From Comamonadaceae bacterium (lineage in GTDB: Bacteria; Pseudomonadota; Gammaproteobacteria; Burkholderiales; Burkholderiaceae_C): 33,920 nt of DNA. Each line of letters opens with the position of its first letter. Position 1 is the first letter of the stretch. The notes below the pieces were generated by a model. The model did no database searches, was not told the origin of the DNA, and worked only from the letters and a program-made list of their open reading frames with translations. Location of the stretch: assembly GCA_013823655.1 (NCBI GenBank), contig PNMN01000005.1:1-33920 (forward strand). Direction: 5' to 3'. The position numbers were made by a program, and so were the translations under genes. Shown piece after piece: positions 5,059 to 29,941 of this stretch.

Positions 5059-5091
5059 AAAAAAAAGCGGCTCAACGCAGGTTGAGCCGCT
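5059..5091 (-). terminator. Rho-independent terminator, read on minus strand
   Basis: Perfect 11-bp inverted repeat AGCGGCTCAAC-GCAG-GTTGAGCCGCT (5066-5091) followed on the minus strand by an 8-base T run (5066-5059). Confidence 0.88.
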
Positions 5092-5219: not shown

Positions 5220-8200
5220 TTACAGCTTGCCCAGCAGATTCACAAACCAGCCGCGGCTGCGGTAGCTCATGTCGGTCAAATCGTCCGAGAAGGTGGTGAA
5301 GTTGTAACCCAGGCCGAGCTTGACATTCGGGTTGATGTGGCGGTACACGCCCAGCAGAGCCCCGGACTTGGCGTCCTGCGCCTCCTCGGCTGCGAGATGC
5401 CGCAATTCGCCCATGATGTCCCACTTGTGCACCACGTGCCAGTCGACCCGTGCAATGGCCAGCCAGGCGCTGCTGCGGAACCAGTTGCCGCCGAGCTGGC
5501 TGGTGTCGCGCAGTTCGCCGAAACGGTAGCCCAGCTTGCCTCCCACCGACAGCCTGGGCATCAGATCGTAAATGGCGTCCACCGACAGCACATGGCTGCG
5601 TTGCTCGTACACATTGACCGCCCCGGCAGCGCCGACCTGTCCCGGGCTGGGCAGGTCTGACAGGTAGGTGTACTTGAAGAGCGCGTTGAGCCGGTCGTTC
5701 AGAACCGGGCGATAAGCGAGCCCGAGCACGCCTTCCGTGAAGTTGGCGTCGCCCGTGCTGCCAGCCCTGGCCTGGCTGCGCGCCAGATTGAGCCGACCCA
5801 GCAAACGCCAGTCGGGTGTGGCCTGGTAGCCCAGCGTGTTCTTCAGCAGCCAGCTCTCGCGCTGGCCGCTCTGGTTGCCGTCTTCGGTGCGGTACTCGAT
5901 CACACCGGTGTACCGGATTTTTTCGAACCGGTACCCCGCCGACAACGACATCGCACTGCGCTCCAGATCGCCGGTGGCGGGCTCGGCGCTGCTGCCCTGC
6001 TCCAGACGCGCGCCCAGCGTCCAGCGATCACTGGCCGCCAGGTCCAGGCCAAAGGCATGGATCAACCCGGAAGAGCCGTTGGCCGCCTCCTGGTAGCGCG
6101 ATTCGGTGTACACGGAAAGACTGTCGCTGTAACGCGATTTCACGCCCGCCGTGATGCCGCCCACGCGAGCGCGGTGGCCGGTGTCGCTGCGGTCGGGGTC
6201 GAGCAGGTAGTTCAGGTAAACGCTGCTGCGGTCGGACAGCCGGTAGTCCAGCGCCAGCTTGGCACCCGCACCACCATCACCCTCGCTGATCTCGCCGGAC
6301 ACATTGGCCCGGTCGTTCACCTGGTACTGCGCACCCACGGCGATGCGGTCGTTCTCGCTGCGGCTGGCGTCGTGCTGCGCGGTGCCCTGCAACAGGCCGT
6401 AAACGCCCCAGCGCCCCGGTTGACCCTTCTCGTCGACCGGGTGGTAGGCCAGCTTGGCGGCGACGTCGGTGCGGGCACCGGTTTCGGCCAGTATCGCGCT
6501 CGCGCCAGCGGCCAGCGCGGTTTCCCGCTCGTCCCGGCGCACCCCCAGAGAGGCGGCCACACTGGGTGTGACCGCATAGGTGGCGTTGACTTCTGCCGAC
6601 TGGTTGGCCCCCGAGAGTCGCCCGTCCTTTCGGTCTACCCGGGCCAGCAGTTCGAGTTTGTCGCTGGCCTGGACTTTGCCCTGCACACCGATCTGTTCGA
6701 TGCCTTCGCTGGTGATCTGCCCCGGGGCCGAGTAACCGTCCTCGCGCTTGACCCAGTAGGCGTTCACGCTGCCTGGCAGCGTCGCGCCGAGTTCCCGGAG
6801 ATCGGCCGCAGCCTCCACCCGATGCGCCTGCGCCTCGATGCCTGCGGTGGTGGTTTGCGCCACCGTGCCAAAATTGAAACCGCCGTTTTGCGAACTCAGC
6901 GCGCCATTGCCAGGACCACTGGACTGGGCGGTTTCCAGTTTCAGATAGGTGCCCGGCTGGTAGCGCAAAGTCAGATCGGCACCCAGCAACTCCTGCTCGG
7001 TCCCCACGCCGTCCTGCCGGTAGCCGGTGATGCCGAGCTTGACCCGGTCACCCAGCCAGTGGCTGGCGCGGCCACCGAGCGTGAGGTTTTCCGCCGCCGT
7101 CAGCCCAGGGGTGAACTCGTAGCCCACCACCAGGTAGGTCGGATGTCCGGAGAGCGCACCCGAGAGCACCAGGGTGTCGGCACTGGCCGTGGCAGCCAGG
7201 GGCGTGCGCAAGATCACGCGGCCCTGGAGGCTGTTGAGTTCGTAGTCTTGTCCGTGCACCAGGGTGGTGGATTTCAGCACGATGCCGGAATCCTTGTCCC
7301 GCACCTCGACACGCAGGCGTTCGGAGCCCACCAGAATGTCCTGATTGCGCAGGTAATACAGTGAGCCACCGGTGCCACGGAATTCCTCCACCGACGCCAG
7401 GGTGCCGGGGTCGGCGGCAAACAGATCCACCTCGCTGCGCCGCTCGCCAAAGGCGGTTGCCTCGGAACTCTGGTAACGCGCCTGTGCGCCGTACAAGCCA
7501 CGGCTGTAGTTGACCAGATCGGTGCCGCTGAGTTTGGTCTGGAAACTGCCCCACAACACGTGCGAGTCGTTGCGCTGCAGCTTCACGTAAAACTTGCCCT
7601 GGGTGGGTGCGTCCTCCACCAGCGTGGAGTCGTCCCCGTACACAGGGTAGTAGGCATTGGGGTCCAGGCGACGCAGCAGGTACCGAGGGTCCTTGCTGTT
7701 GAAGTTGGAGAACAGGTCCCCGATGGGCTGCTCGCGCGTGTCGGCGCTGGCGGTCAGCAGCGTCTCGCCCTTGATCTTGCCTTTGAGATAAAACGCCAGA
7801 CGGCCATCGACGTGGATTTTTTCCTCGTAGCGTCGGCTGGTGTCTCCGGTGACGAGTTGTGCCGGGCCAGTGACCCGGTTCTGACCGATGGTCAAATCCG
7901 CCAGCGCGACGTAGAACCAATCGTTGTGCGGAATGTAGATGTGGCGCTTGAACTCCGCGCGCTGCCCCCCGCTCTGTGTGGCGATATCGACCACATGGCG
8001 GCCGGGCGGCAAAATCTGCCGCAGCGCAAACTTGCCCTGTGCGTCCACCGGCACCGCACGACCGAGCACGGTGACTGCGCTGCCCGGCGCGAGTCGGTCA
8101 CCGTTGACGGTGACGGCGCCACCCCGCACCGGGATGTTTTTCAGATGGCGGTGATTTTCACCGTAGCCGATCAGGTCCTCGCGCGGCTGCGGCTCCTCGT

Positions 8201-9449
8201 CGGCCAGCGGGTTTCTGGCATCCAGCAGGCGCAGCGTCTTGGGGCGGCTTTCATCAAAGCGCCCTTGCGCGTCGTACACGCGCAGCAGGTACTGCACGGC
8301 GTTGCGGTCTTGCGGGGCCGTCCACTGGGCCACCGTATCGACCCGGGGATCGAGTGCAATCACCGCCAGGGGCGTTTTTTGCGTCGAATCGTCGGCAGCA
8401 AACACCCGCACTTCGGCCTTGCTGATGAAGGCGGCGTAGTTGCTGTAGGGGGTGAATCGCACCGCTGCGCCACGCACGGCAGCATCGGGGTGCACCGTCA
8501 GGTTGAGCACCGGCGTGGCCTCCAGGCCGTCAAAGCGCAGCTGGATGTCGGCTTTCTCCAGCGCCACGTCGGTGCAGCGCGTGGTGTCGGCGCTGTTGGG
8601 CAGGTCCTGCCGAGCCAGGGGCACGCCGTCGACGGAAATCCGGAACGGCAAACCGGCGTCGCCACCCAGCTGGTCCTTGCACGCCGGCGGCGCGGGCTGG
8701 GGCGGCGGCGCCACGGCGGGCACCGGCACGGCCTCTGTGGTCACGCCCACCTGCTGGTCGTACCAGACCTCGATCTCGACACGCCGGTTCGGTGCCAGGC
8801 AGGCCTTGTAGTCGATCATGTCCTGCTCGTTGCCCGCGTAGGCAGCCTTGGCGTCGCAGCTCTGCAGCGGCACCGTGTCGCCCCGCCCCAGCACCTCCAT
8901 CGGCACCGCCGCCATGCCGGGAAAACCGCGCAAGAAGTCTTGCACCTGCGTGGCGCGGGCTTGCGACAGGCCCTGGTTGTCGCCGAAGCGTTTTCGCGTC
9001 GCCGGTGTCATGCGCTGAACGTCGGCATGGCCTGTCAATCGCAGCCTCAGGCCTGGCTTGCCGGCCAAACGTTGCGCCAGCGCGCTCAGTGCGTCGCGCT
9101 CGGGTTGACTCAGGAGATCGAACCCGGATCCAAACAGCGGCAGCACCGTGGGCTTGGCCCCGGGTCGGTTGGCCAGCACCGGCACTTCCCGGCTGCTGGC
9201 CGCGGGGGTGGCGACTGGGCTGCTTGCCCTGCTCACCACCACCACCTCATTCGGTCGGCGGTATTCGACGCTGGGTGCAACGGCACCGATGGGCCGGGTG
9301 AGGACATGGCTGTCCTGGCGGGCTTTGCCGGCTTGTTCCGGCACGGCGCAGCCGGTCTTGCCATCACTCTTGCCATCACAAACGCCCGCCGCCACGGCGG
9401 GAGCACAGACCAGGGTGGCGATCAGACTCGCGAGCAGTGTTTTGTTCAT
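5220..9449 (-). CDS. Outer-membrane protein: N-terminal OmpA-like domain, Ig/carboxypeptidase-regulatory-like segment, large C-terminal beta-barrel
   Basis: Signal peptide MNKTLLASLIATLVCAPAVAA; OmpA-like LRLTGHADVQR...NQGLSQARATQVQDFL...NRRVEIEVW; C-terminal half shows alternating aromatic/polar barrel strands. Confidence 0.8.
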   Translation of the reverse strand: MNKTLLASLIATLVCAPAVAAGVCDGKSDGKTGCAVPEQAGKARQDSHVLTRPIGAVAPSVEYRRPNEVVVVSRASSPVATPAASSREVPVLANRPGAKPTVLPLFGSGFDLLSQPERDALSALAQRLAGKPGLRLRLTGHADVQRMTPATRKRFGDNQGLSQARATQVQDFLRGFPGMAAVPMEVLGRGDTVPLQSCDAKAAYAGNEQDMIDYKACLAPNRRVEIEVWYDQQVGVTTEAVPVPAVAPPPQPAPPACKDQLGGDAGLPFRISVDGVPLARQDLPNSADTTRCTDVALEKADIQLRFDGLEATPVLNLTVHPDAAVRGAAVRFTPYSNYAAFISKAEVRVFAADDSTQKTPLAVIALDPRVDTVAQWTAPQDRNAVQYLLRVYDAQGRFDESRPKTLRLLDARNPLADEEPQPREDLIGYGENHRHLKNIPVRGGAVTVNGDRLAPGSAVTVLGRAVPVDAQGKFALRQILPPGRHVVDIATQSGGQRAEFKRHIYIPHNDWFYVALADLTIGQNRVTGPAQLVTGDTSRRYEEKIHVDGRLAFYLKGKIKGETLLTASADTREQPIGDLFSNFNSKDPRYLLRRLDPNAYYPVYGDDSTLVEDAPTQGKFYVKLQRNDSHVLWGSFQTKLSGTDLVNYSRGLYGAQARYQSSEATAFGERRSEVDLFAADPGTLASVEEFRGTGGSLYYLRNQDILVGSERLRVEVRDKDSGIVLKSTTLVHGQDYELNSLQGRVILRTPLAATASADTLVLSGALSGHPTYLVVGYEFTPGLTAAENLTLGGRASHWLGDRVKLGITGYRQDGVGTEQELLGADLTLRYQPGTYLKLETAQSSGPGNGALSSQNGGFNFGTVAQTTTAGIEAQAHRVEAAADLRELGATLPGSVNAYWVKREDGYSAPGQITSEGIEQIGVQGKVQASDKLELLARVDRKDGRLSGANQSAEVNATYAVTPSVAASLGVRRDERETALAAGASAILAETGARTDVAAKLAYHPVDEKGQPGRWGVYGLLQGTAQHDASRSENDRIAVGAQYQVNDRANVSGEISEGDGGAGAKLALDYRLSDRSSVYLNYLLDPDRSDTGHRARVGGITAGVKSRYSDSLSVYTESRYQEAANGSSGLIHAFGLDLAASDRWTLGARLEQGSSAEPATGDLERSAMSLSAGYRFEKIRYTGVIEYRTEDGNQSGQRESWLLKNTLGYQATPDWRLLGRLNLARSQARAGSTGDANFTEGVLGLAYRPVLNDRLNALFKYTYLSDLPSPGQVGAAGAVNVYEQRSHVLSVDAIYDLMPRLSVGGKLGYRFGELRDTSQLGGNWFRSSAWLAIARVDWHVVHKWDIMGELRHLAAEEAQDAKSGALLGVYRHINPNVKLGLGYNFTTFSDDLTDMSYRSRGWFVNLLGKL

Positions 9450-9451
9450 GG

Positions 9452-12400
9452 TTATTCACCCACCTTGCGGGACGGTTGGGCAGGCAGAAAGAGTTCCTCC
9501 TCGATCAGCAAGCCATGGCAGCAGCCTTGCCTGGCCCACGCCTCCTGGAGTTGCTGGCGCACCGCCAGCAAGCGCTCGCGCGCCAGCCCTTCGCCCTCGC
9601 CTGCGGCCTGGTAGGCCAGCCGCAGCACCGAGGGCCGGGCCTGAAACTGCTCGGGCAGGGCGGAGAATTGCCGCACCCAGTCGGGTTTGAGCGTGGTCTG
9701 GCCGGGCTCGAACGCGGCGTCACTCATGTCCACGCGCACCACCTTGTGGATGGTGGCGCCGAAATTGAGCTTGCTCAGCTTGCCGCGGGTGAGTCGCACG
9801 TCGCGCGGGTTTTCGGTGGTCACGCGGTAGCCGGTGGGCAGGGTGCGTTCGTCGAGCTTCATGACGAAGTTGCTGCCCCGGTCGGCATCGGGTATGGCCG
9901 CGCAGGCGACATGGAACCGGCCTTCGGCATCGGTGTTCACCAGCCAGCCGCGCGCGGTGGCCAGGCGCACGCCGGGCAAGCCGGGCTCGCCCTCGTCCTG
10001 GTAGCCATTGGCGTTGCGGTCGTCGAACACCTTGCCAATCAGGTCCGAGCAGTCGAAGGTCGGGTCGGGGACCACCCGAACCACGGCGGTTGACAGGTTT
10101 GACACGGCATTCGAATGGGGCGGCGGCACCTGGTTGTTGAACGCCTGCGCCGTATTCACGTACTCACCCGGCTGCACGCCCGCGCCGACCACCAGAACCA
10201 GCTTCACCGTGCGCGTGACATTGGGCGCAAAGACCAGGCTGCTCCAAGTCAGCACGCGACCGTTGACGGTCGGTTCCGCCGCCACGCCATCGAGCGTGGC
10301 GCTGCCTGGCACGTATTTGAAGCCCGGTGGCAGCGTGTCGCGAATGTCGATGTGGGTCAGATTCGCCGCCAGCGTATTGCGCGCGGTGATCGTGTACGGC
10401 ACCAGCTGCCCCACGCTCACGTTGACCAGCGGCGTGGTCTTGATCAGCGCCAGCGCACCACCCAGCACCGGGTCGATGGGGATGTGGTTGTTGACCACGC
10501 CCACGCCCGAGAGCGTCAGGGCGAAGCTGAGGTAGTAGGTGGTGGCGTCGGCGCCGGTCGGGGCACCCGGCTGCGGCTGCATCGCAAACACGCTGCCCGG
10601 TGGCCCCGCCGGTGGCGTGAAGGGGCCTGCCTGTGGCGGGATGATGTTCGAAGGCGGCGGCAGATAGCCGCCGGGCTGCACCACCTGCAAGGTGTAGGTG
10701 GCATTGCCCGGACAGCCCGGGGGCGCCGGGTTGATCAGCAGGTACTGGTACGAGCCGGTGGCGCCGGTGGTCTGGGCATTGACGCCGCCCACCAGGCACG
10801 CATCAGCCACTTGCACGCCACCGGCCAGCAGCGTCACCACCGCGCCCGCCACCGGGGCGCGGGTCACCGAGTTGTACACCACACCCGCCGGGTCGAGCGG
10901 CAGGTTCTGTTGCAAGGTGGTGGTGCCGCTGGCCAGTTGCAGGGCCGTGATCACGCCGTTGCTGATCACGCCGTTGCGCGTTGGCGTGGGGTCGGCCGAT
11001 TGCGCAATGCCGTAGATCGCGCCGCTGGCGGGTTCGCGAAAGCGCACCGAGTAGTAGGTGGCAGGATTGCCCGGGGTGGACGGGAACAGGCCAGCCACGC
11101 TGTAGTTGCCACTGGCATCGGTGGTTGCCGTGCTCAGCACGGTGCCTGCGGCATTCAGCACTTCGACGATGAAGCCCTGCACCCGGTTGCTGATCAGGGG
11201 GTCGTTGTTCACCCGATCATGGTTGGCGTCCAGATACACCGTGCCGCTGACCGCAGACAGCGTGCCGGCGGCAAAGCTCACCGGCGTCGGATCGTTCTCG
11301 CCCGCGTCACCGGGGTTGCCGTTGCCGTTCGGGTCGGGGTTGCTGCCGTCGTCGGACGCATCGCTGGCAATCACCGGGCCAGCGGGCGTGGACGCCGTGG
11401 TGGCCAGCGCCTGGTTGTTTTGCACCGCAGAGGGCAAGGGGTTGGTGCCAAAGTCGATCTCGGTCGTGAAGCTGATGCTGCAGCGCTCACCCGGTTGCAG
11501 GTTCTGATTGCCCGCCAGCAGCCGGTTTTGCCCGCTGCCGGTGAAAGCCGCTGGTGCCACGTTGAGCACGGTGCCGGTGCAAGCCGACACCGCTGCCGCT
11601 GCGCTGATGCTGCGACTCTGCGCCGTCGGGAACGTGGCGAGCAGGTCATCCGTCACCTGCACGTTGGTCGCCGTCACGCTGGTGCTGAGGTTTTGCACCA
11701 CGATCGAATACGACACGCGGTAGCGCTTGTGGCCAACCTGCACCACACCCGTGACCGCTTTCGCCACGCCGATCACCTGCGCCGACAGGTTCACCACGGT
11801 GGGGGATGCGTCGTCGGTCGGGTCGCCGTTGCCGTTGGCGTCCGGGTTGGCGCCGTTGACGCTGTCGTCGCTGACGTTGCCGCCTGCGGGCGAGACGCCG
11901 GTGCCGGTGGCGGTGTTGTTGAACGGACCCGCCGTGGTGGGGAAGAAGCGCAGCGTGAATTGGATCTGGGCGCTCGATGGGTTGGCGCCAAAATTGGGCA
12001 GGCTGGAGCTCGCTGGCACCAGCAAAGCGCTGCCCGCACCGCTGCCGGTGAACACGCCCGCAGCCACTGGCGTGAGCGTGGCACCGTGGGTTTGCACCCC
12101 CACCACCGGGGCGCCAACGACCGTGTACTCGTTCGGCCCCGGAATGGCATTGGCGGTGTAGGTGCCAAATTGCGGCAGTGCGCCGTTGATCGCATCGGTG
12201 ATCTGCACATTCGCCAAGGGCGTCTGACCGGCATTGACCACGGTCAAAGTGAAGGGCACGCTGTAGCTGCCGTCACCGTGGTTGACCACCGCAGCGGCGG
12301 ACTTGGCCAGCCCGATGTGCGGAATCGGCACCGGCGTCGGGTCGTTCTCACCCGGCTCGTTGGCGTTGCGGTTGCCGTTCGGATCGGGGTTGCTGCCGTC

Positions 12401-12619
12401 GTCTGAACTGTCGGCGGCGGTACTGCCCGAGAACGCCCCGGTGCCGGTGCTGGTCGCCTGGTTGGTGTAGGCCTGCCCGGGCTGCGGAACAAAGCGAAAG
12501 CCAAATTCCAGCGTGCAGGTTCCATTGATCGGCAGTTGCGCGATGGACGCCGCCAGCGCGGCACCGGAACCATCAAAACCCGCATTCACCATGCCCGTTG
12601 CGCAAGCGCCCACAAACAC
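9452..12619 (-). CDS. C-terminal portion of giant DUF11/SdrD-B-like repeat protein (separated from the N-terminal portion by a frameshift)
   Basis: Continues the repeat register of the upstream ORF; GTG 'start' at 12619 lies inside a repeat; contains GKVFDDRNANGYQDEGEPGLPGV SdrD-B-like motif. Confidence 0.8.
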   Translation of the reverse strand: MFVGACATGMVNAGFDGSGAALAASIAQLPINGTCTLEFGFRFVPQPGQAYTNQATSTGTGAFSGSTAADSSDDGSNPDPNGNRNANEPGENDPTPVPIPHIGLAKSAAAVVNHGDGSYSVPFTLTVVNAGQTPLANVQITDAINGALPQFGTYTANAIPGPNEYTVVGAPVVGVQTHGATLTPVAAGVFTGSGAGSALLVPASSSLPNFGANPSSAQIQFTLRFFPTTAGPFNNTATGTGVSPAGGNVSDDSVNGANPDANGNGDPTDDASPTVVNLSAQVIGVAKAVTGVVQVGHKRYRVSYSIVVQNLSTSVTATNVQVTDDLLATFPTAQSRSISAAAAVSACTGTVLNVAPAAFTGSGQNRLLAGNQNLQPGERCSISFTTEIDFGTNPLPSAVQNNQALATTASTPAGPVIASDASDDGSNPDPNGNGNPGDAGENDPTPVSFAAGTLSAVSGTVYLDANHDRVNNDPLISNRVQGFIVEVLNAAGTVLSTATTDASGNYSVAGLFPSTPGNPATYYSVRFREPASGAIYGIAQSADPTPTRNGVISNGVITALQLASGTTTLQQNLPLDPAGVVYNSVTRAPVAGAVVTLLAGGVQVADACLVGGVNAQTTGATGSYQYLLINPAPPGCPGNATYTLQVVQPGGYLPPPSNIIPPQAGPFTPPAGPPGSVFAMQPQPGAPTGADATTYYLSFALTLSGVGVVNNHIPIDPVLGGALALIKTTPLVNVSVGQLVPYTITARNTLAANLTHIDIRDTLPPGFKYVPGSATLDGVAAEPTVNGRVLTWSSLVFAPNVTRTVKLVLVVGAGVQPGEYVNTAQAFNNQVPPPHSNAVSNLSTAVVRVVPDPTFDCSDLIGKVFDDRNANGYQDEGEPGLPGVRLATARGWLVNTDAEGRFHVACAAIPDADRGSNFVMKLDERTLPTGYRVTTENPRDVRLTRGKLSKLNFGATIHKVVRVDMSDAAFEPGQTTLKPDWVRQFSALPEQFQARPSVLRLAYQAAGEGEGLARERLLAVRQQLQEAWARQGCCHGLLIEEELFLPAQPSRKVGE

Positions 12620-15040
12620 CGGGGGCTCTGGATCGTGTACTGCCCCGCCACCAGCACCGCGCCCGCACCACCCGCCACGTGCGTGCCGAACCGGGGCACG
12701 GCACCGCTCATCAGATCACTGACGCTGACGTTGTTGAGTTCTTCGTTGCCCAGGTTCTGCACCGTCATGCGGAAGCTGCCGCTGTAGCTGCCATTGCCGT
12801 TCACCAGCAAACCGGACTGCAAAACCTTGGCGATGCCGATGGAGGCCGTGTGCGTGTAGCCCACCGGTGTGGGCGTGTTGTTGTTGGTCGGGTCGCCGTC
12901 GCTGTCGCTGTCTGCGTTGCTGCCGTTGTTCGACGTGTCGGTGACCGCACCCAGCGTGAACTCGCCCGTGCCAGCACCGGTGGCCACATTGCTGTAACCG
13001 CCCACCGGCGACGGACTTTGTGGACGGAAGCGCAGACTGAGGTCGAATTCACACGCCGCGCCCACTTCAAGGCGGCTCAGGCTGGCGATCTGGCTGTTGC
13101 CAGGCGCGCCGGTGAATCCCGGCGTCAGGGTGGCCACAGGGCAAGCCCCTTGAACCGTGGGCGCAGCCTCGATGGTGTATTCGCCGTTGTTCAGGCTGGC
13201 CGCTGGGCCACCGGCCACAAAACTGCCGAATGCCGGTGCCGCGCCCGCCACCAGATCCGACACCGTCACATTCAGCAGGGGCTCGGTGCCGAAGTTCTGC
13301 ACCCGGATGCGGAAGGGCACGCTCACGCTGCCGTTGGCATGGATGAGCTCGGCCATCGGCTTGGCTTTGGCCAGGCCAATGCGCGGGGTAAAGCTCAGGA
13401 GGACCCTGGTGGGGTCGTTCTCACCGGTCTCGTTGCCGATGCCGTTGTTGTTGGCATCCGGGTTGCTGCCGTCGTCCGACAAGTCGTTCGTGACCACACT
13501 GCTTTGCGCACCCGTGCCTGCTGCCTGTGCCTGGTTGAGGTAGGCGCCACCCACGGGCAGCGGCGGCAATGGACGAAAGCGAATGCTGACATTGACCGTG
13601 CAGCTCGCGTTCACCGAAAAACCGCTGATGTTGGCCAGCAAAGTGACCGCGTCGCCGTTGAAGGCGGCGTTGGCGCTGCCGCCTGCGCAGGCGCCACCAA
13701 AGGCGGGCGCCGTCTGCACGGTGTACTGCCCGGGGGCCAGCGCAGCCGCTGCGCCGCCGGTGACAAAGGTGCCAAAACTCGGCTTGGCGCCCGATAGCTG
13801 GTCTGTCACGGCAACGCCGTTCAACACTTCGCCCCCGGTGTTGCGCACCACCATCTGGAACGGAACCGTGAACGTGTCATCGCCATTCGCCGTGTGCGTT
13901 GTATTGACGCGCTTGGCGATCGCTACCCGCGGATAAGGCACTGGCGTCGGGTCGTTCTCGGTGGCTTCGCTGGCATTGCCGTTGCCGTTCGGATCGGGGT
14001 TGCTGCCGCTGTCTGAAAGGTCTGTGACCAACGCACCCGAGAAAGCGCCCGTGCCCGCCGCCAGCGCCTGGTTGGTGTAGATCGTCACCGCCCTGGGCAT
14101 GAAACGGTAGGTGAAGCCCATGGTGCACGATGCGGCCGGCTCCATGCCGGACATGCTGGCCACTTCAAGGCCACCCGCAGCGCCGCTGAAGCCCGCAGTC
14201 AAGGCGCCATTGGTGCACAGCCCCTCGAAAGCCGGCGCGGTCTGCAGCGTGTATTGGCCGCTGGCCAGCGTGGCCGCAGCCCCGCCCGACACAAAAACAC
14301 CAAACTGGCCGCCCGCCGCCGATGCCAGGGGGTCGGTCACCGCCACGTTGGACAGAGGCTCGTTGCCGACGTTGCGCACCAGCAACCGGATCGGCACCAC
14401 GATGCTGCCGTCGCTTTGCACCGAGACACCCGGGCTGATTTCTTTGGCGATGCCGATGGCGCTGTTGAATACCGGGTTCACCGGCGTCGGGTCGTTCTCA
14501 CCGGCCTCGTTGGCGCGGCCGTTGCCGTTCGCATCGGGGTTGCTGCCGTTGTCGGACAGGTCTTGCAATTGCGGCTGGGTCGCAGAGGTTTGCCCAGACA
14601 GCGCACCGGTGCCGATCACCGTGGCCTGGTTTTCGTAGCGACCACCGGAGGGCAACAGTGGCGGCCAAGGTGCCGTTGCCCGAACGCGGATGGCGATGTC
14701 GATCTGGCACGACGCGCCTGCCGCCAGCGCAAAGCCGCTGGCGACGTTGGTGTCGGCAGCGCCGTTGAACCCTGGGTTGAGTCCGCCGCAGGTGCCGCTG
14801 GGCGCGGTCAAACGGGTGTACTGGCCATTGAGCAGCGGATCGGTGGCCGGATTGGCCAGCGTGACGTGGGTGCCAAAGCGCGGCGCGGGCCCGGCCAGTG
14901 GGTCGGTCACGGTGATGCTGTTCAGTTCCTCGAGGCCGAGGTTGCGCACAAACAGGCGGAAGTTGACGTTGAAGCTGCCATCGGCGTTGATGCTGGGGCT
15001 GCCGGCAACAAGCTGCTTGGCAATGCCGATGCGCGCCTGC
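11270..15040 (-). repeat. Seven tandem ~540-bp coding repeats, each ending in an Asp/Asn-rich linker
   Basis: [GA][ILV]AK repeat starts near 15020, 14450, 13920, 13372, 12832, 12308 and 11768; linkers of type GSNPDPNGNGNxxExxENDPTPV. Confidence 0.85.
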
Positions 15041-18000
15041 GGGACTTCGGCAAAGAGGTAGCCGGTGGCGGCGGTGTTGGACGGCAGGGCGATGGCCGAA
15101 ATGACGTCGTTGACCGCGGTGCTGCCGCCAGCGCTGCCAGCGCTGTCGATGCCGTCCACCAGGTTTGTCTCGCTGACCGTGCCCTGGGTGATGGTGTAGC
15201 TGCCTTGGGGCACAAAGTTGAACACGAAGTTGCCGCTGGGGTCGCTGGGGTCTCTGGTGGCGCTGCGGTTGAGCGCCACGCCGTCAAAGGTGGTGCCGCT
15301 CAGCGTCAGGGGGACGCCATCGATGCCGGTGTCGCCCGCGTCCACCAGACCATTGTTGTTGAAGTCGCGGAACACGCGCCCGGCCAAGGAAGACGAGTTC
15401 ACCGTCACGCTGCCGCTGTTGCTGTTGTTGGCCGGGACGGTGTCGAGCGAACTGGTGGCGACGCTGGCGGTGTTGGTAAAGACCTGCGGGTAGCTGGTGA
15501 CCGTGGTCAACTCGACCGGTACGGTGATGTCGATCTCGGCACCGTTGCTGACCGTGCCCAGCGCACAAGTGAAGCTGGTGCTGCCCGCAGCGCCGGTACA
15601 CGTGGTGGTGCTGGCGCTGCCGGAAACGATGGCCACGGTGGGCGCGCCGGTGAGCACCATGTGGGCCGGCAGGTTGTCGGTGAGCACCACGTCGTCGGCT
15701 TCGGCCAGCCCGGCGCCGGTGTTGTTGCGCACCCGGATCACGAAGCTGAAGTCGTCGCGCAGGTTGACGGTGGCGGCAGACGGCGTTTTGCTCACCACCT
15801 GCATGTCGGCCTTGGTGCGCACCGTGGTGGTTTCGGTGACGCTGTTGTTGGCCGGGTTGCTGTCAAAGCCAGCCGCCACCTCGTCCGAACTCACGCTGGC
15901 GCTGTTGGTGCTCACGCCTTTGGCAACCCCCTGCATGGTGATGGTCAGGCTGCTGATTTGGGACGCCGCAAGGTAGGGAATCTGGCACACCAGGGTGCCG
16001 CCGATGTTGTCCACCGCAGGCACGCTGGAGCAGCTGCCGCCGCTGGGAACGGTGTGCGACTGAAAGCTCAGCCGGGTCGGTGGCAGGGTGTCGGTGATGA
16101 CGACGTTTTCTGCCGCCGACGGCCCCTGGTTGGTGACCGTGATGGTGTAGACCGTGTTGTCCCCAGCCGCCACCGGGTCAACACTGTCGGTTTTGTTGAT
16201 CAGCAGGTCGAGCGCGGGCGGGGTCACCGGCGTGCTCACCGTGGCGCTGTTGTTGCCAGTGTTGGTTTCCGCCGTGCTGGTGCTCACCACCACGCTGTTG
16301 GTCAGCGTGGTGTTCCGGGTGGCTGTGTTGGGGCGCACCACAATGGTCGCCGTTCGCTGCGCGTTGTTGGCAATGGTGCCGAAATTGCAGACCACCTGGT
16401 TGTTGCCTGGGCCGGTGGTGCTGTTGGCCGCAGGCGCGCTGCAGCTGCCGCTGGACGGCGCGACGGAAATGAAGGTGACGTTGCTGGGCAGGGTGTCGGT
16501 GATGGTGACCGCTGCTGCTTGCGACAGGCCGTTGTTGAGGTTGATTGCCGTGACCACATAGGTCAGGTTCTGACCTGCGGGCACGTTGACTGGTGTGGCT
16601 GTTTTGGTGACGGTGACATCCGCGCGCGGATCCACCATGCTCGACACCGACGCAACACGGTCGATCGAATCGGGATCCGCCGTATCGTGCGAATTCACGT
16701 ACACCCAGTTACTGCGGCTGCCGCCGTTGCCGCCGGGGCGCACCTGCACGGTAATCACGGGACAATTCGATCCGACAGTACAGACGGGGATGCTGGTGAA
16801 GTTGCAACTCAAGTCGCGGCCTGTGGCGCCACTGGCTGTTGTCGAGCAGCTGCCTCCCGTGGACACCCCCGCACTGATGGTTTGCCCAACATACCCCGCC
16901 CCGGTGGGAGCGACGCTGCTGTTCATCAAGCCGGTCAGGCTGTCGGACAACGCGACCGTAGTGGCAGTCTGCGGACCGGCGTTGACAATTTCCAGCGTGT
17001 ACGTCAGCACCTCCCCGGCAGCGACGGTGGTGGGAGAGACCGATTTCAGCACGGACAGATCAGCTGCGTTGGCAGGCGCGCTACTGGTCACCGCATAGGT
17101 CTCAACGTCGTTGGCGGAATTGGTATCTGCAATGTTGGCGTCGGGCGAGCTCACCGTCATGCGGTTGTTGATGCTGCCGGTCCCCGTGGCCGTGGTGTTC
17201 AGCACCACAGCGGGCGAGGTCGCACCCACCCCGAGCGGCGCGCCCGCGGTGTAGCTGCGATTGCAGGTGATGGTGGCCGGGCCGGTGACCGGCGCAGCGG
17301 GCAGGCAAGCCCAGCCGTTGAGGCTGTAGCTGTCAACCCGCAACCCGGCAGGCAGATCGTCGGTCATCACCAGGGTGCCGTGGAAAGCCGCCGTGCCGAT
17401 ATTGGACGCGCTGATGTTGTAAACGTAGCTGCTGCCCACCACCACCAGCGCCGGGCTGGGGCCGGACTTGTGGGCGCGCAGATCGACCGTGGGCGCCAGA
17501 ATGGTGGCACCGCCGTCGCTGGCGCTGTTGTTGGCCGGGTTCGGGTCGGTCGGGCTGGTGGCAGCGATGCTGGCGCTGTTGATGACAGGGTTGGGGCTGC
17601 CCGGGCTGGCGGCGGTGACCGGGATGACGATGTTGCCCAAGGCCACGTTGTTGCCGGCCACGCTGCCAGCCGCCCGGGTGCAGGTGACGGTTTGCCCGGC
17701 CACGGAGCAGGCCCAGCCGTTTTGCGAGGGCAGCACCGCGCCCACGGTGTAGTTGTCCGGCACCACGTCGGTGATGGTCAAGCCGCTGGGCACGTCGCCG
17801 GTGTAGCGGGGGTCTAGGGTGAAGCTGGCGGCCTGCCCGACCAGCAGGTTGCCGCCGGGTGCGCGGCTTTTGCTGATGCGCACATCGCTGCCCGCCGTCA
17901 CGCTGGTGTTGAACACGGCGGTGTTGTTGCCAGCCACCGGGTCGAGCGGCGCCGTGGAAGCCACGCTGCCCGACGGCGTGATGGTGGAGCCCGCTGCCAC

Positions 18001-18723
18001 CGCAATCTGGCCGCTGAAAGTCCGCGTGACCGTGGCGCCGACGGCCAGCGGACCGGCGATGGTGCAGGCGTTGGGGCTGGAAATGGTACAGCCGGGCGCG
18101 CTGATGTTGTACAGACCGGCGGGCGCAGGAAAAGTCAGCGTCAGGTTGCCTGCGGGGTTGGGCCCGATGTTGCGCGCGCTGAAGGTGTAAGAGGCCACAC
18201 TGCCCGACTGGGCGCTGGCCGGTCCGGCCAGGGTGAGTTCAATGTCGGCACCGGCGTTCACGGTGGTGGACTGGTTGGCCACGTTGTTGCTGCTGTCGGC
18301 GTCTCCGGTCACCGGCACACTGGCGCCCAGGACCACAGTGCCCTGCGCGCTGGTGCGAACCCTGACCAGCACCGTTGCATTGTCGCCAGCCACGCCCGCA
18401 ACCGACAGAGCGGGCACGTTGCAAGTCACCGGCCCGGCGCCGGAGCAAGTCATGCCGCTGGCACTGACGAAGCTGGTGGTGGCCGGAATGCTCAGGGTCA
18501 GCGTGGTCGCCGGTGCGGGATCCGTGCCGTTGTTCCCCACCCTGACGCTGTAGACGATGTCACCACCGGCCGGTATCGGGTCGTATCCGGTGTCGCTGTT
18601 GTTGACCACCCAATCCACACTGGCCCAGGCCATGCCTGGCAGCAACAGGCCGACCACGGCACTCAGCACAGCACTGCGAGCAAAACGCAAGGCACGCGAG
18701 CGGGCGGAGAAATGGGTCGGCAT
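12586..18723 (-). CDS. N-terminal portion of giant DUF11 repeat protein, with signal peptide
   Basis: Start MPTHFSARSRALRFARSAVLSAVVGLLLPGMAWA at 18723 with AGGAG 7 nt upstream; about 8 DUF11-like repeats, SdrD-B-like GRVFRDFNNNGLVDAGDTGIDGV, then tandem ~540-bp repeats. Confidence 0.85.
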   Translation of the reverse strand: MPTHFSARSRALRFARSAVLSAVVGLLLPGMAWASVDWVVNNSDTGYDPIPAGGDIVYSVRVGNNGTDPAPATTLTLSIPATTSFVSASGMTCSGAGPVTCNVPALSVAGVAGDNATVLVRVRTSAQGTVVLGASVPVTGDADSSNNVANQSTTVNAGADIELTLAGPASAQSGSVASYTFSARNIGPNPAGNLTLTFPAPAGLYNISAPGCTISSPNACTIAGPLAVGATVTRTFSGQIAVAAGSTITPSGSVASTAPLDPVAGNNTAVFNTSVTAGSDVRISKSRAPGGNLLVGQAASFTLDPRYTGDVPSGLTITDVVPDNYTVGAVLPSQNGWACSVAGQTVTCTRAAGSVAGNNVALGNIVIPVTAASPGSPNPVINSASIAATSPTDPNPANNSASDGGATILAPTVDLRAHKSGPSPALVVVGSSYVYNISASNIGTAAFHGTLVMTDDLPAGLRVDSYSLNGWACLPAAPVTGPATITCNRSYTAGAPLGVGATSPAVVLNTTATGTGSINNRMTVSSPDANIADTNSANDVETYAVTSSAPANAADLSVLKSVSPTTVAAGEVLTYTLEIVNAGPQTATTVALSDSLTGLMNSSVAPTGAGYVGQTISAGVSTGGSCSTTASGATGRDLSCNFTSIPVCTVGSNCPVITVQVRPGGNGGSRSNWVYVNSHDTADPDSIDRVASVSSMVDPRADVTVTKTATPVNVPAGQNLTYVVTAINLNNGLSQAAAVTITDTLPSNVTFISVAPSSGSCSAPAANSTTGPGNNQVVCNFGTIANNAQRTATIVVRPNTATRNTTLTNSVVVSTSTAETNTGNNSATVSTPVTPPALDLLINKTDSVDPVAAGDNTVYTITVTNQGPSAAENVVITDTLPPTRLSFQSHTVPSGGSCSSVPAVDNIGGTLVCQIPYLAASQISSLTITMQGVAKGVSTNSASVSSDEVAAGFDSNPANNSVTETTTVRTKADMQVVSKTPSAATVNLRDDFSFVIRVRNNTGAGLAEADDVVLTDNLPAHMVLTGAPTVAIVSGSASTTTCTGAAGSTSFTCALGTVSNGAEIDITVPVELTTVTSYPQVFTNTASVATSSLDTVPANNSNSGSVTVNSSSLAGRVFRDFNNNGLVDAGDTGIDGVPLTLSGTTFDGVALNRSATRDPSDPSGNFVFNFVPQGSYTITQGTVSETNLVDGIDSAGSAGGSTAVNDVISAIALPSNTAATGYLFAEVPQARIGIAKQLVAGSPSINADGSFNVNFRLFVRNLGLEELNSITVTDPLAGPAPRFGTHVTLANPATDPLLNGQYTRLTAPSGTCGGLNPGFNGAADTNVASGFALAAGASCQIDIAIRVRATAPWPPLLPSGGRYENQATVIGTGALSGQTSATQPQLQDLSDNGSNPDANGNGRANEAGENDPTPVNPVFNSAIGIAKEISPGVSVQSDGSIVVPIRLLVRNVGNEPLSNVAVTDPLASAAGGQFGVFVSGGAAATLASGQYTLQTAPAFEGLCTNGALTAGFSGAAGGLEVASMSGMEPAASCTMGFTYRFMPRAVTIYTNQALAAGTGAFSGALVTDLSDSGSNPDPNGNGNASEATENDPTPVPYPRVAIAKRVNTTHTANGDDTFTVPFQMVVRNTGGEVLNGVAVTDQLSGAKPSFGTFVTGGAAAALAPGQYTVQTAPAFGGACAGGSANAAFNGDAVTLLANISGFSVNASCTVNVSIRFRPLPPLPVGGAYLNQAQAAGTGAQSSVVTNDLSDDGSNPDANNNGIGNETGENDPTRVLLSFTPRIGLAKAKPMAELIHANGSVSVPFRIRVQNFGTEPLLNVTVSDLVAGAAPAFGSFVAGGPAASLNNGEYTIEAAPTVQGACPVATLTPGFTGAPGNSQIASLSRLEVGAACEFDLSLRFRPQSPSPVGGYSNVATGAGTGEFTLGAVTDTSNNGSNADSDSDGDPTNNNTPTPVGYTHTASIGIAKVLQSGLLVNGNGSYSGSFRMTVQNLGNEELNNVSVSDLMSGAVPRFGTHVAGGAGAVLVAGQYTIQSPRCLWALAQRAW

Positions 18724-18958
18724 GTGGATGCTCCTGGTCATGGTTGCTTTTGCCTGTGGCGCAGGTTGGTATTCGTTCATCGGCGCGCACCGGATTCTAA
18801 GTAACAAAAAGTCACTCAAAATGCAGAAATCGCGCTGAAACCACAGCAAGGCAGCAGTCCGTGAACAATTCACACTTGCTGGCGGCAAAAAGTGCGTCAA
18901 GGCGTTGCGCCCAGGCACCACACCACCATTGCTCCAGCCCTGTGAAGTCTTTGGTCCC

Positions 18959-19032
18959 GTTCGGGCTGAGCCTGTCGAAGCCCTTCGACAGGCTCAGGGC
19001 GAACGGCTGATACGGCTCAGGGCGAACGGCTG
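18959..19032. repeat. REP/REPIN-like palindrome with duplicated tail
   Basis: GTTCGGGCTGAGCCTGTCGAAG-CC-CTTCGACAGGCTCAGGGCGAAC: 22-bp arms, 2 mismatches; GGCTCAGGGCGAACGGCTG directly repeated at 18991-19009 and 19014-19032. Confidence 0.85.
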
Positions 19033-19480: not shown

Positions 19481-19933
19481 TCAGGCGGTTTCGCCCAGCA
19501 CCGAGACGGCAACGTCCACCGTCACGTCGGTGTGCAGGTTCACGCTCACCGTGTAGTCGCCCACGTTCTTCAGCGGGCCGTTGGGCATGCGAACTTGCGA
19601 CTTCGCGACGCTGAAGCCCTGCTTGTTCAGCTCTTCGGACACGTCGTGGTTGGTGACGGAGCCGAACAGGCGACCATCGACGCCGGCTTTCTGCGACAGC
19701 TTGAGCGCCACGGCAGACAGCTTTTCACCCAGCGCCCGGGCTTCGGCCAGTTTGGCGGCAGCGACTTTTTCGAGCTCGGCGCGGCGGGCTTCGAATTCGG
19801 CAATGGCCGATTGCGTGGCGCGGCGGGCACGACCGGCGGGGATCAGGAAGTTGCGGGCGTAGCCGTCCTTGACCCTGACCACATCGCCCAGGGCGCCGAG
19901 GTTGACAACTTTGTCGAGCAGAATGATTTGCAT
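19481..19933 (-). CDS. rplI: 50S ribosomal protein L9
   Basis: [32 protein letters not shown]; internal ATG at 19933 is the true start. Confidence 0.96.
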
Positions 19934-19946
19934 GTCAGTTTCCCTT

Positions 19947-20228
19947 TCAGACGCGGTGCTGGTCGCTGTAGGGCAGCATGGCCAGGAAGCGCGCACGCTT
20001 GATGGCGGTGGTGACCTGGCGCTGGTAGATGGCACGGGTGCCGGTCAGACGCGCGGGGATGATCTTGCCGTTTTCGGCGATGAAGTCGCGCAGGACGTCC
20101 ACGTCCTTGTAGTCCACTTCTTCGACGTTGGCCACGGTGAAGCGGCAGAAACGCTTGCGCTTGAACAGCAGCGACTGGGTGTTGCGCTTGGGGCGCTTGT
20201 CTTTGTTGAAACGTTTGGGGGAAGCCAT
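19947..20228 (-). CDS. rpsR: 30S ribosomal protein S18
   Basis: [61 protein letters not shown]. Confidence 0.97.
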
Positions 20229-28067: not shown

Positions 28068-29109
28068 TCATTGCGCGGGGTCGCGCAATTCCCAGCGGAT
28101 CTGGTCGATCTCCTTGAGCAACCCGGGCGAGAGTTCAACACTCCACGCATCCAGGCACTCGTCGAGCTGCGCCAGCGAGGTCACGCCGATGATGGTGCTG
28201 GCGACTTTCGGGTTGCGGTAGCAGAAGGCCAGCGCCAGCTGCGTCGGTGTGAGGCCGTGCTCGCGGGCCAGCGTGTTGTAGCGCTTCGCCGCCGCCAGCG
28301 CTTCGGGACGCCCCCAGCGCTGCGCCTTCATGCTGTCGTACAGCGCCATGCGACCGTGGCTTCCCACCAGCCCGGTGGCGTCGTACTTGCCGGTCAGCAG
28401 ACCAAAGCCCAGCGGCGAATAGGCCAGCAGGGACACGCCAAGGCGGTGACAGGTTTCGTCCAGCCCGTTCTCAAAGCTGCGGTTGATCAGGCCATACGGG
28501 TTCTGCACCGTGGCCACGCGCGGCAGGCCGTGTTGCTCGGCCAGCCGCACGAATTCGTGCACGCCATACGGCGATTCGTTGGACAACCCCACCGCCCGCA
28601 CCTTCCCGGCCTTCACCAGCTCGCCAGGGCTTCCAGTGCTCCAGCACCGAAGGCGCGGCCCGGTCTTTGGCGGGGTCGAAATACAGCGCTCCAAATGCCG
28701 GCACGTTGCGCGCCGGCCAGTGGATCTGGTAGAGGTCGATCACGTCGGTCTGCAGGCGGCGCAGGCTGCCTTCACACGCCTCGATGATGCCGGCCTTGCT
28801 GACCTCGCTGCGCAGCCAGGGCATGCCCCGCGCCGGGCCGGCCACTTTGGTGGCGAGCACCAGTTTTTGGCGCACGCCAGGGTTCTTCGCCAACCAGTTG
28901 CCGATGATGGTTTCGGTGGCGCCACAGGTTTCTGCCCGGGCGGGAATCGAGTACATCTCGGCGGCATCCAGGAAATGGACGCCGCGCTCCAGGGAGCGGC
29001 CCAGGATGCGATGGGCATCGACCTCGGCGACCTGTTCACCGAAGGTCATGGTGCCCAGGCAGATGGGGGTGACGTGCAAATGGCCGGGGCCGAGTGGAAC
29101 GGTGTTCAT
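28068..29109 (-). pseudogene. Aldo/keto reductase (Tas-like), frameshifted
   Basis: N-terminal half MNTVPLGPGHLHVTPICLGTMTFGEQ..APSVLE in one frame; C-terminal half GELVKAGKVRAVGLSNESPYGVHEF..IIGVTSLAQLDECL in another. Confidence 0.85.
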
Positions 29110-29263
29110 GCAATTTTTTGTAAATGCGGCTTGTGTGCTCTGGCGCACAGAGTGCGGCGGGTATAAGTTTAGAGTGCCTGAAGGAGGTCCGATGGTCGCG
29201 TCCGGGTCAAACCTCGGCAGACCAGTCACCTCAAACCATTTTTTTCAACCAGCCGAGATCGAC

Positions 29264-29941
29264 ATGATGAACACCCCTTTTGCACGCAGCCTGACCGCAG
29301 CCTCCGTCGCCGCCGCGTTGACCCTGAGCGGCTGCGCCAACATGACCGAAACCCAGCAAGGCACGGCCAAGGGCGCCGCCATCGGTGCCGCAGCGGGCGC
29401 GGTGCTCGGCGCCGTCACCGGCAATTCCAGCAGCGCCGCCAAGGGCGCGGTGCTGGGTGCCGGTGCGGGCGCCGTGGGTGGCTACATCTGGTCCAAAAAA
29501 ATGCAGGAACAGAAGGCCGCCATGGAGCAAGCCACGGCGGGCACCGGCGTGGCGGTGACGCAGACGCCGGACAACCGCCTCAAGCTGGACATCCCCAGCG
29601 ACATCTCTTTCGACGTCGGTCGCTCCACCGTCAAGTCCAACATGGCCGGCGTGCTGAACCAGTTCGCCACCACGCTGAACGCCAACCCCGCCACCACGGT
29701 GAGCATCGTCGGCCACACCGACAGCTCCGGCAGCGACGCGGTGAACAACCCGCTGTCGGTGGACCGGGCCAACAGCGCGCGCGACTACCTGATCGCGCGC
29801 GGCGTGGCGGTGGCGCGCTTCACCACGGCGGGCCAAGGTTCGCGCGAGCCGGTGGCCGACAACGGCACGCCCGAGGGACGCGCCAAGAACCGCCGGGTGG
29901 AGATCTTCGTGGCCGAACCGGCGACGACGGCCCAGCGCTGA
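29264..29941 (+). CDS. OmpA family lipoprotein with glycine-zipper region
   Basis: Lipobox LTLSGC; GAAIGAAAGAVLGAVTG; VSIVGHTDSSGSDAVNNPLSVDRANSARDYL; NRRVEIFV. Confidence 0.93.
   Translation: MMNTPFARSLTAASVAAALTLSGCANMTETQQGTAKGAAIGAAAGAVLGAVTGNSSSAAKGAVLGAGAGAVGGYIWSKKMQEQKAAMEQATAGTGVAVTQTPDNRLKLDIPSDISFDVGRSTVKSNMAGVLNQFATTLNANPATTVSIVGHTDSSGSDAVNNPLSVDRANSARDYLIARGVAVARFTTAGQGSREPVADNGTPEGRAKNRRVEIFVAEPATTAQR

Follow-up and report, generated by a model that had tools for sequence, protein, structure and literature searches.

In Bacteroidota, proteins with type B C-terminal domains (CTDs), such as those of the SprB-SprF and PorE-PorP-PG1035 systems, are held by PorP-like barrels (PMC9143113). 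These systems are compared here with a gene pair located in a 33,920-nucleotide stretch of DNA from a Comamonadaceae bacterium (assembly GCA_013823655.1, contig PNMN01000005.1, positions 1 to 33,920), referred to below as the window. The pair codes for a giant repeat protein and for P0001, a predicted outer-membrane barrel protein. By analogy, the giant would correspond to the repetitive surface proteins with a C-terminal docking domain, a role for which its terminal SdrD-B-like domain (TSD) is the candidate, and P0001 to the product of the adjoining barrel gene, which in the Bacteroidota systems is required to hold the giant. As in PorE, a peptidoglycan-binding OmpA-type part appears to be placed at the junction. 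However, PorP and SprF are 14-strand FadL-type barrels and export in these systems occurs via the separate SprA/type IX secretion system (T9SS), whereas the window barrel has no match to these families, is predicted to be much larger and belongs to a system with natural fusions of the parts. The Bacteroidota systems are the nearest working analogue of the window pair, in so far as the analogy holds, and not its sequence family.

The adhesin B9T28_05395 of Acinetobacter silvestris (CLIPPER structure 9IFR) also combines a Gram-negative DUF11/CLIPPER stalk with a C-terminal OmpA-like anchor, but the accessible part of its description deals with one adhesin bearing head domains of the CshA type and mentions neither a barrel partner nor a TSD (PMC12617251).

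The forms in which the giant and the barrel are fused resemble classical (type Va) autotransporters in having N-terminal passenger-like repeats and a C-terminal barrel. Classical autotransporter barrels consist of 12 strands and fall into PF03797, whereas the barrel considered here lacks PF03797, is predicted to be far larger and often belongs to a system of two polypeptides. In intimin/invasin inverse autotransporters, Ig-like domains (Invasin_D3/Big_1-like) are likewise found beside an outer-membrane barrel; here, however, the order is reversed, the barrel being C-terminal, IAT_beta gave no match and the stalk is often encoded by a separate gene. Among the listed fold matches, the Deinococcus SlpA/SDBC barrel (8ae1, 7zgx) ranked first by TM-score (0.31), with a similarity no greater than any large barrel would be expected to show. 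It too is a large outer-membrane barrel, and very large surface proteins occur in the same envelope, but no sequence relation to it was found.

A giant surface adhesin with a dedicated outer-membrane partner is a kind of system already known. The window pair is probably a two-polypeptide fibrillar adhesin of this kind, in which the TSD would dock on a dedicated, peptidoglycan-tethered outer-membrane barrel.

Conservation and Co-Occurrence of the Giant and Barrel Genes

The barrel profile (A1) was searched in 300 Burkholderiales and 398 Pseudomonadota genomes, with matches in 42 and 58 of them, respectively. In the Burkholderiales set, DUF11 was present in 41 of the 42 genomes with a barrel in comparison with 59 of the 258 others (Fisher p=1e-21), and a TSD scoring 70 bits or more, taken as strong, was detected in 42 genomes, 41 of which carried the barrel. 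The DNA surrounding 71 barrel loci was annotated with local profiles. The barrel was accompanied by a TSD in 69 of these loci, either in a giant encoded upstream (39 loci) or downstream (3 loci) or fused into the barrel open reading frame (ORF; 27 loci). Locus L103, where the contig stops within the barrel frame, was counted as upstream and is among the 42 adjacent loci either way. The giant and barrel genes usually overlapped by 4 nt or were separated by 2–13 nt, and the domain order in the fused ORFs was DUF11, TSD, Ig-like, barrel. The TSD was missing at two loci, L092, which lies at a contig edge, and L153 (G498:C1), where a DUF11 gene begins immediately downstream of a barrel gene with no detectable TSD.

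The initial annotation of the window had presented the two genes as a coupled surface system, and their conserved co-occurrence proved near-absolute in both directions (41/42 and 41/42), with natural fusions at 27 of the 71 loci. Its proposal of a role for the barrel in exporting, anchoring or displaying the giant is supported by the co-occurrence and the fusions as far as a functional pair is concerned, the choice among the three roles being a matter of inference. Adjacency is all that the window itself displays, and two separately useful envelope proteins could have become neighbors by chance. The 27 fusions, the 41/42 reciprocal co-occurrence and the correlation of r=0.95 over 22 unfused loci, described below, make such a coincidence extremely improbable.

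The pairing extends beyond Burkholderiales. Eleftheria terrae, Sinorhizobium meliloti T073 (plasmid locus) and Acinetobacter haemolyticus w12 are among the carriers. Its distribution inside the sampled genus was patchy, which fits an accessory surface system. Distant fused-type homologues were noticed in the Cyanobacteria Kovacikia minuta (H28) and Synechococcus sp. NIES-970 (H29), with 24–29% identity over 74–83% of the query. Two IMG/VR contigs filed as viral (L078 and L169) carried copies of the system, representing a prophage flank or mis-binned bacterial DNA. A phage origin was considered and rejected.

Some fused-type loci contained additional DUF11 genes. In the operon-like loci L105, L107, L157 and L172, several small DUF11 proteins were encoded on either side of the barrel gene, an arrangement that suggests a multi-subunit surface structure. 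At L175/L176 (G174:C1:3760614-3788564), a fused DUF11-TSD-barrel gene was followed at once by a single open DUF11-repeat ORF of 9,316 codons, which overlaps it and has no TSD. DUF11 ORFs of 7,722 and 5,865 aa were observed in the related genomes G272 and G045.

The TSD as the Invariant Partner of the Barrel

The number of DUF11 domains ranged from 0 to more than 15 across loci and the position of the TSD was constant. It is the C-terminal TSD, not DUF11 as such, that invariably partners the barrel. Sequence matches to solved SdrD B domains (10ps_A, E=1e-12 and 4jdz_B, E=1.3e-5) assign the TSD to the SdrD B-type (CnaB-like) fold. In 22 unfused loci, the correlation of pairwise distances with those of the barrel was 0.953 for the TSD, 0.949 for the last DUF11 domain, 0.64 for the middle one and 0.55 for the first one. 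This gradient along the giant suggests that its C-terminus is the barrel-proximal end.

In one genus, genomes with a single barrel carried three TSD giants (G164) or five (G321), some of them encoded at distant positions in the genome. The C-terminal 800 aa or so of these giants, including the TSD, were about 55% alike and the remainder about 40%. A docking or sorting domain that is recognized by a common partner would be expected to produce this pattern.

The arrangement of these genes was as follows. At L163 and L143 (G321:C22), the barrel gene was followed by three tandem TSD giants, with more TSD giants elsewhere in the genome, and at L165 (G164:C1) one barrel and three TSD giants were identified.

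Properties of the Predicted Barrel

P0001 ends with GWFVNLLGKL, a C-terminus similar to an outer-membrane beta-signal. The AlphaFold model of residues 500–1409, built on five sequences, had a mean predicted local distance difference test (pLDDT) score of 60.6, with most of the 771–1407 segment at 60–88 and 34 successive strands. The model of residues 232–1409, built on four sequences, reached a pLDDT of 45 and was excluded from the fold comparison. Scans of viral contigs for a deeper barrel alignment added two sequences only. Among the best 50 Foldseek matches in the PDB, 49 were outer-membrane barrels, including LptD, BtuB, SlpA, TonB receptors and Mtr. The C-terminal part of P0001 is likely a large outer-membrane barrel, for which the model provisionally gives 34 or more strands.

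Beyond OmpA, the Pfam scan of P0001 returned only sub-threshold generic barrel matches, and no NCBIfam family was assigned to it except for OmpA-like pieces. The barrel profile retrieved no relative by sequence from the PDB, and the viral fold library returned fragments of porin-like proteins only, which was uninformative. No PF03797 autotransporter, TpsB/POTRA, inverse autotransporter (IAT_beta), LptD or usher family was detected in the full Pfam scans of P0001 and five relatives. The PorP_SprF family gave no Pfam or NCBIfam match for P0001 or its relatives. The same was true of SprA for the barrel; the whole-genome search for SprA_N was also negative, a weak result, as the control genomes were equally silent. 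Membership in the type XI secretion system (T11SS) was rejected because of the lack of a DUF560 match. In public databases, the barrels are annotated as 'OmpA family protein', 'TonB-dependent receptor' or 'hypothetical protein'. The label TonB-dependent receptor is given to barrel members in the plasmid records H2, H5, H7-H10 and H16; the scanned members had no match to a TonB-receptor family.

The barrel might also act as an export channel, which would recognize the TSD in the periplasm, thread the N-terminal giant outward and retain it by the TSD, in a two-piece scheme resembling that of autotransporters or the T9SS. The fusion order stalk-TSD-barrel, with the passenger at the N-terminus and the barrel at the C-terminus as in classical autotransporters, is in line with this possibility, and the predicted 34 or more strands would leave room for a polypeptide. 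One barrel with several TSD giants likewise recalls a common translocator for proteins that carry a sorting domain at the C-terminus, and no other secretion gene was constantly linked among the loci read. However, the barrel has no POTRA, PF03797 or SprA/LptD/usher family match, the confidence of the model is modest, with closure, pore or plug not discernible in it, and the extra DUF11 proteins without a TSD held by some fused loci are not accounted for by TSD-based export. Export of the giant through the barrel is possible, if rather doubtful, and anchoring of the giant by the barrel is well supported by inference.

The Stalk and the OmpA-Type Junction

The giant starts at ATG 18723 (MPTHFSARS..., signal peptide ...AVVGLLLPGMAWA). 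Pfam recognized DUF11 (PF01345, E=1.4e-103) in eight stretches and in one more in the second part of the protein, together with DUF7507 and SdrD_B, and tandem PF01345 domains in a protein of this length with a signal peptide mark it as a DUF11/CLIPPER stalk. The Lys-Asp-Asn isopeptide triad was in alignment register in seven of the nine DUF11 repeats, from which the bond itself is predicted. According to the CLIPPER study, DUF11 domains are the stalks of fibrillar adhesins, and the isopeptide bond formed from the Lys-Asp-Asn triad was shown in a solved structure (PMC12617251). The earlier view of DUF11 as lacking a characterized function is outdated, since these domains are now characterized as CLIPPER in the same source; the pairing itself was still undescribed in the literature searched.

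The PF00691 match in P0001 scored 30.3 bits against a cut-off of 27.2, and OmpA-like matches were also obtained in NCBIfam and the PDB. For the degenerate OmpA-like tail, 87 aa long in window-type giants, all 20 shuffled controls in hhalign gave E values of 0.18 or worse. The placement of OmpA was mobile: it was located at the N-terminus of the barrel protein in the window and its closest kin, at the C-terminus of the giant in L039, L078 and L109 and in a third or next gene in L040, L045, L082, L088, L094, L110, L144 and L172. The OmpA domains at the giant/barrel junction indicate that this junction is most likely periplasmic and wall-tied.

The giant might instead be wholly or mainly periplasmic or lie along the envelope, the pair forming an outer membrane-peptidoglycan tether or an S-layer-like scaffold. 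The presence of OmpA-type domains on both partners, which places the junction in the periplasm, agrees with such a location, as does the first rank, by TM-score among the listed fold matches, of Deinococcus SlpA, an outer-membrane tether/S-layer barrel. However, about 20 Ig-type domains would far exceed the span of the periplasm, and the repeat number and N-terminal sequence of the giants were highly variable among loci, similarly to surface-exposed proteins. CLIPPER domains with isopeptide triads also typify exposed stalks (PMC12617251). A periplasmic scaffold is considered quite unlikely.

Organization of the Locus in the Window

The minus-strand layout given in the initial annotation, with a giant of about 3,090 aa separated by 2 nt from a 1409-aa OmpA and barrel partner, was confirmed from the ORFs and Pfam (Table 1). 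The 2-nt gap lies between the stop of the giant (GTG GGT GAA TAA) and the ATG of the barrel gene. The pair is flanked by rplI (19481-20035) and argD/argF, and one strong terminator-like hairpin was found in comparison with 0.3 expected. As part of the favored reading, the two genes probably constitute an operon.

Table 1. Features of the giant/barrel locus (coordinates refer to the window).
Feature	Position	Strand	Basis or remark
Giant repeat protein	9452..18723	minus	ORFs 12586-18921 and 9452-12619, about 3,090 aa when the single frameshift is bridged
Predicted Sec signal peptide of the giant	18622..18723	minus	MPTHFSARSRALRFARSAVLSAVVGLLLPGMAWA followed by S; read from sequence
Eight DUF11 (CLIPPER) stalk domains	15409..18615	minus	Pfam; Lys-Asp-Asn triad in six of eight
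SdrD_B-like domain, mid-stalk	15169..15387	minus	PF17210, residues 1179-1251 of P0002
CLIPPER_2/DUF7507-like repeat units	12586..15033	minus	About 180 aa each; Pfam
Frameshift in C run, inside repeat unit	12610..12630 (near 12620)	minus	Frame open on both sides
Last (ninth, C-terminal) DUF11 domain	10091..10456	minus	Carries Lys-Asp-Asn triad
Terminal SdrD-B-like domain (TSD)	9716..10072	minus	Conserved companion of barrel; SdrD B-domain structures match
Degenerate OmpA-like tail of the giant	9455..9730	minus	Profile-profile (hhalign) 80.7%, E=1.3e-5
Barrel partner P0001 (OmpA, Ig-like, predicted outer-membrane beta-barrel)	5220..9449	minus	1,409 aa, exact ORF
OmpA (peptidoglycan-binding type) domain of P0001	8844..9134	minus	PF00691, residues 106-202, E=5.4e-7
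Ig-like linker region, beta domains	7953..8642	minus	Invasin_D3/Big_1-like in relatives
Predicted large beta-barrel	5223..7952	minus	34 strands in residues 771-1407 and about 5 earlier; AlphaFold
Intrinsic-terminator-like hairpin	5066..5091	minus	11 bp stem, T7, about 130 nt past barrel stop, before argD

The frameshift divides the giant into ORFs of 2,111 and 1,055 aa. In the closest relative, L036 from a metagenome-assembled genome of Thiobacillus sp. 65-1059, the giant is a single open ORF of 2,553 aa (L036:2337-9998) and the 2-nt spacing to the barrel gene is identical. The ratio of nonsynonymous to synonymous substitution rates (dN/dS) relative to L036 was 0.22 for the barrel gene and, for the giant, 0.33 before and 0.25 after the frameshift, which demonstrates purifying selection on both reading frames. 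The intact L036 orthologue and the frame maintained on either side indicate that the frameshift is recent or an assembly/sequencing error. A programmed frameshift was rejected, as there is one lesion in a short C run and the orthologue is intact.

Upstream of the giant, an inverted repeat, CCCTGAGCCTGTCGAAGGGCTTCGACAGGCTCAGCCCGAACGG, was noticed at 18955-19005, which resembles a dispersed repetitive extragenic palindromic (REP)-like element. A second, unrelated OmpA protein with glycine-zipper domains is encoded on the plus strand at 28784-29941.

Discussion

In the proposed mechanism of the two-polypeptide adhesin, the giant and the barrel protein would both cross the inner membrane via Sec, as their signal peptides suggest. 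The barrel protein would insert in the outer membrane and grip peptidoglycan from the periplasmic side through its OmpA domain, and the TSD and degenerate OmpA tail of the giant would dock onto it. Physical contact between the TSD and the barrel would in this way give the barrel its anchoring role and the giant its surface location, with the DUF11/CLIPPER stalk, presumably stiffened by internal isopeptide bonds, held at the cell and projecting outward. Other bacteria encode the same unit as a single fused protein, and several TSD giants may share a barrel.

Several observations weigh against this interpretation. No adhesive head domain was detected by Pfam in either half of the giant, and since there is none at its N-terminus, the term adhesin is applied by analogy only. 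The Foldseek TM-scores were low (query-normalized, at most 0.31), and the AlphaFold runs were made with single chains on four or five sequences, with mean pLDDT of 45 and 60.6. OmpA was undetected in some loci, the correlated divergence of linked genes results partly from shared inheritance and the giant in the window is frameshifted as assembled.

The giant/barrel pairing was not found as a described system in the open-licence literature, a search that a description in a subscription journal would escape. It might represent, although this is put forward tentatively, an undescribed outer-membrane secretion-and-anchoring system of Proteobacteria, in which a single-chain barrel of 34–40 strands recognizes the TSD on giants, exports them and tethers them to peptidoglycan. 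With the same reservation, the barrel of such a system could be among the largest known, serving one or several giants with isopeptide stalks. The system would be categorically new only if the barrel turned out to be a secretion channel in its own right.

In a survey of fibrillar adhesins, known anchors were present in about half of the set and many unrecognized anchors were suspected (PMC9210967). The TSD-barrel pair is a concrete and widespread candidate anchor/exporter for very long Gram-negative DUF11 proteins, with the TSD predicted to be a portable docking or sorting signal. The pairing accounts for a class of large barrels that currently carry labels such as 'OmpA family', 'TonB-dependent receptor' or 'hypothetical'.

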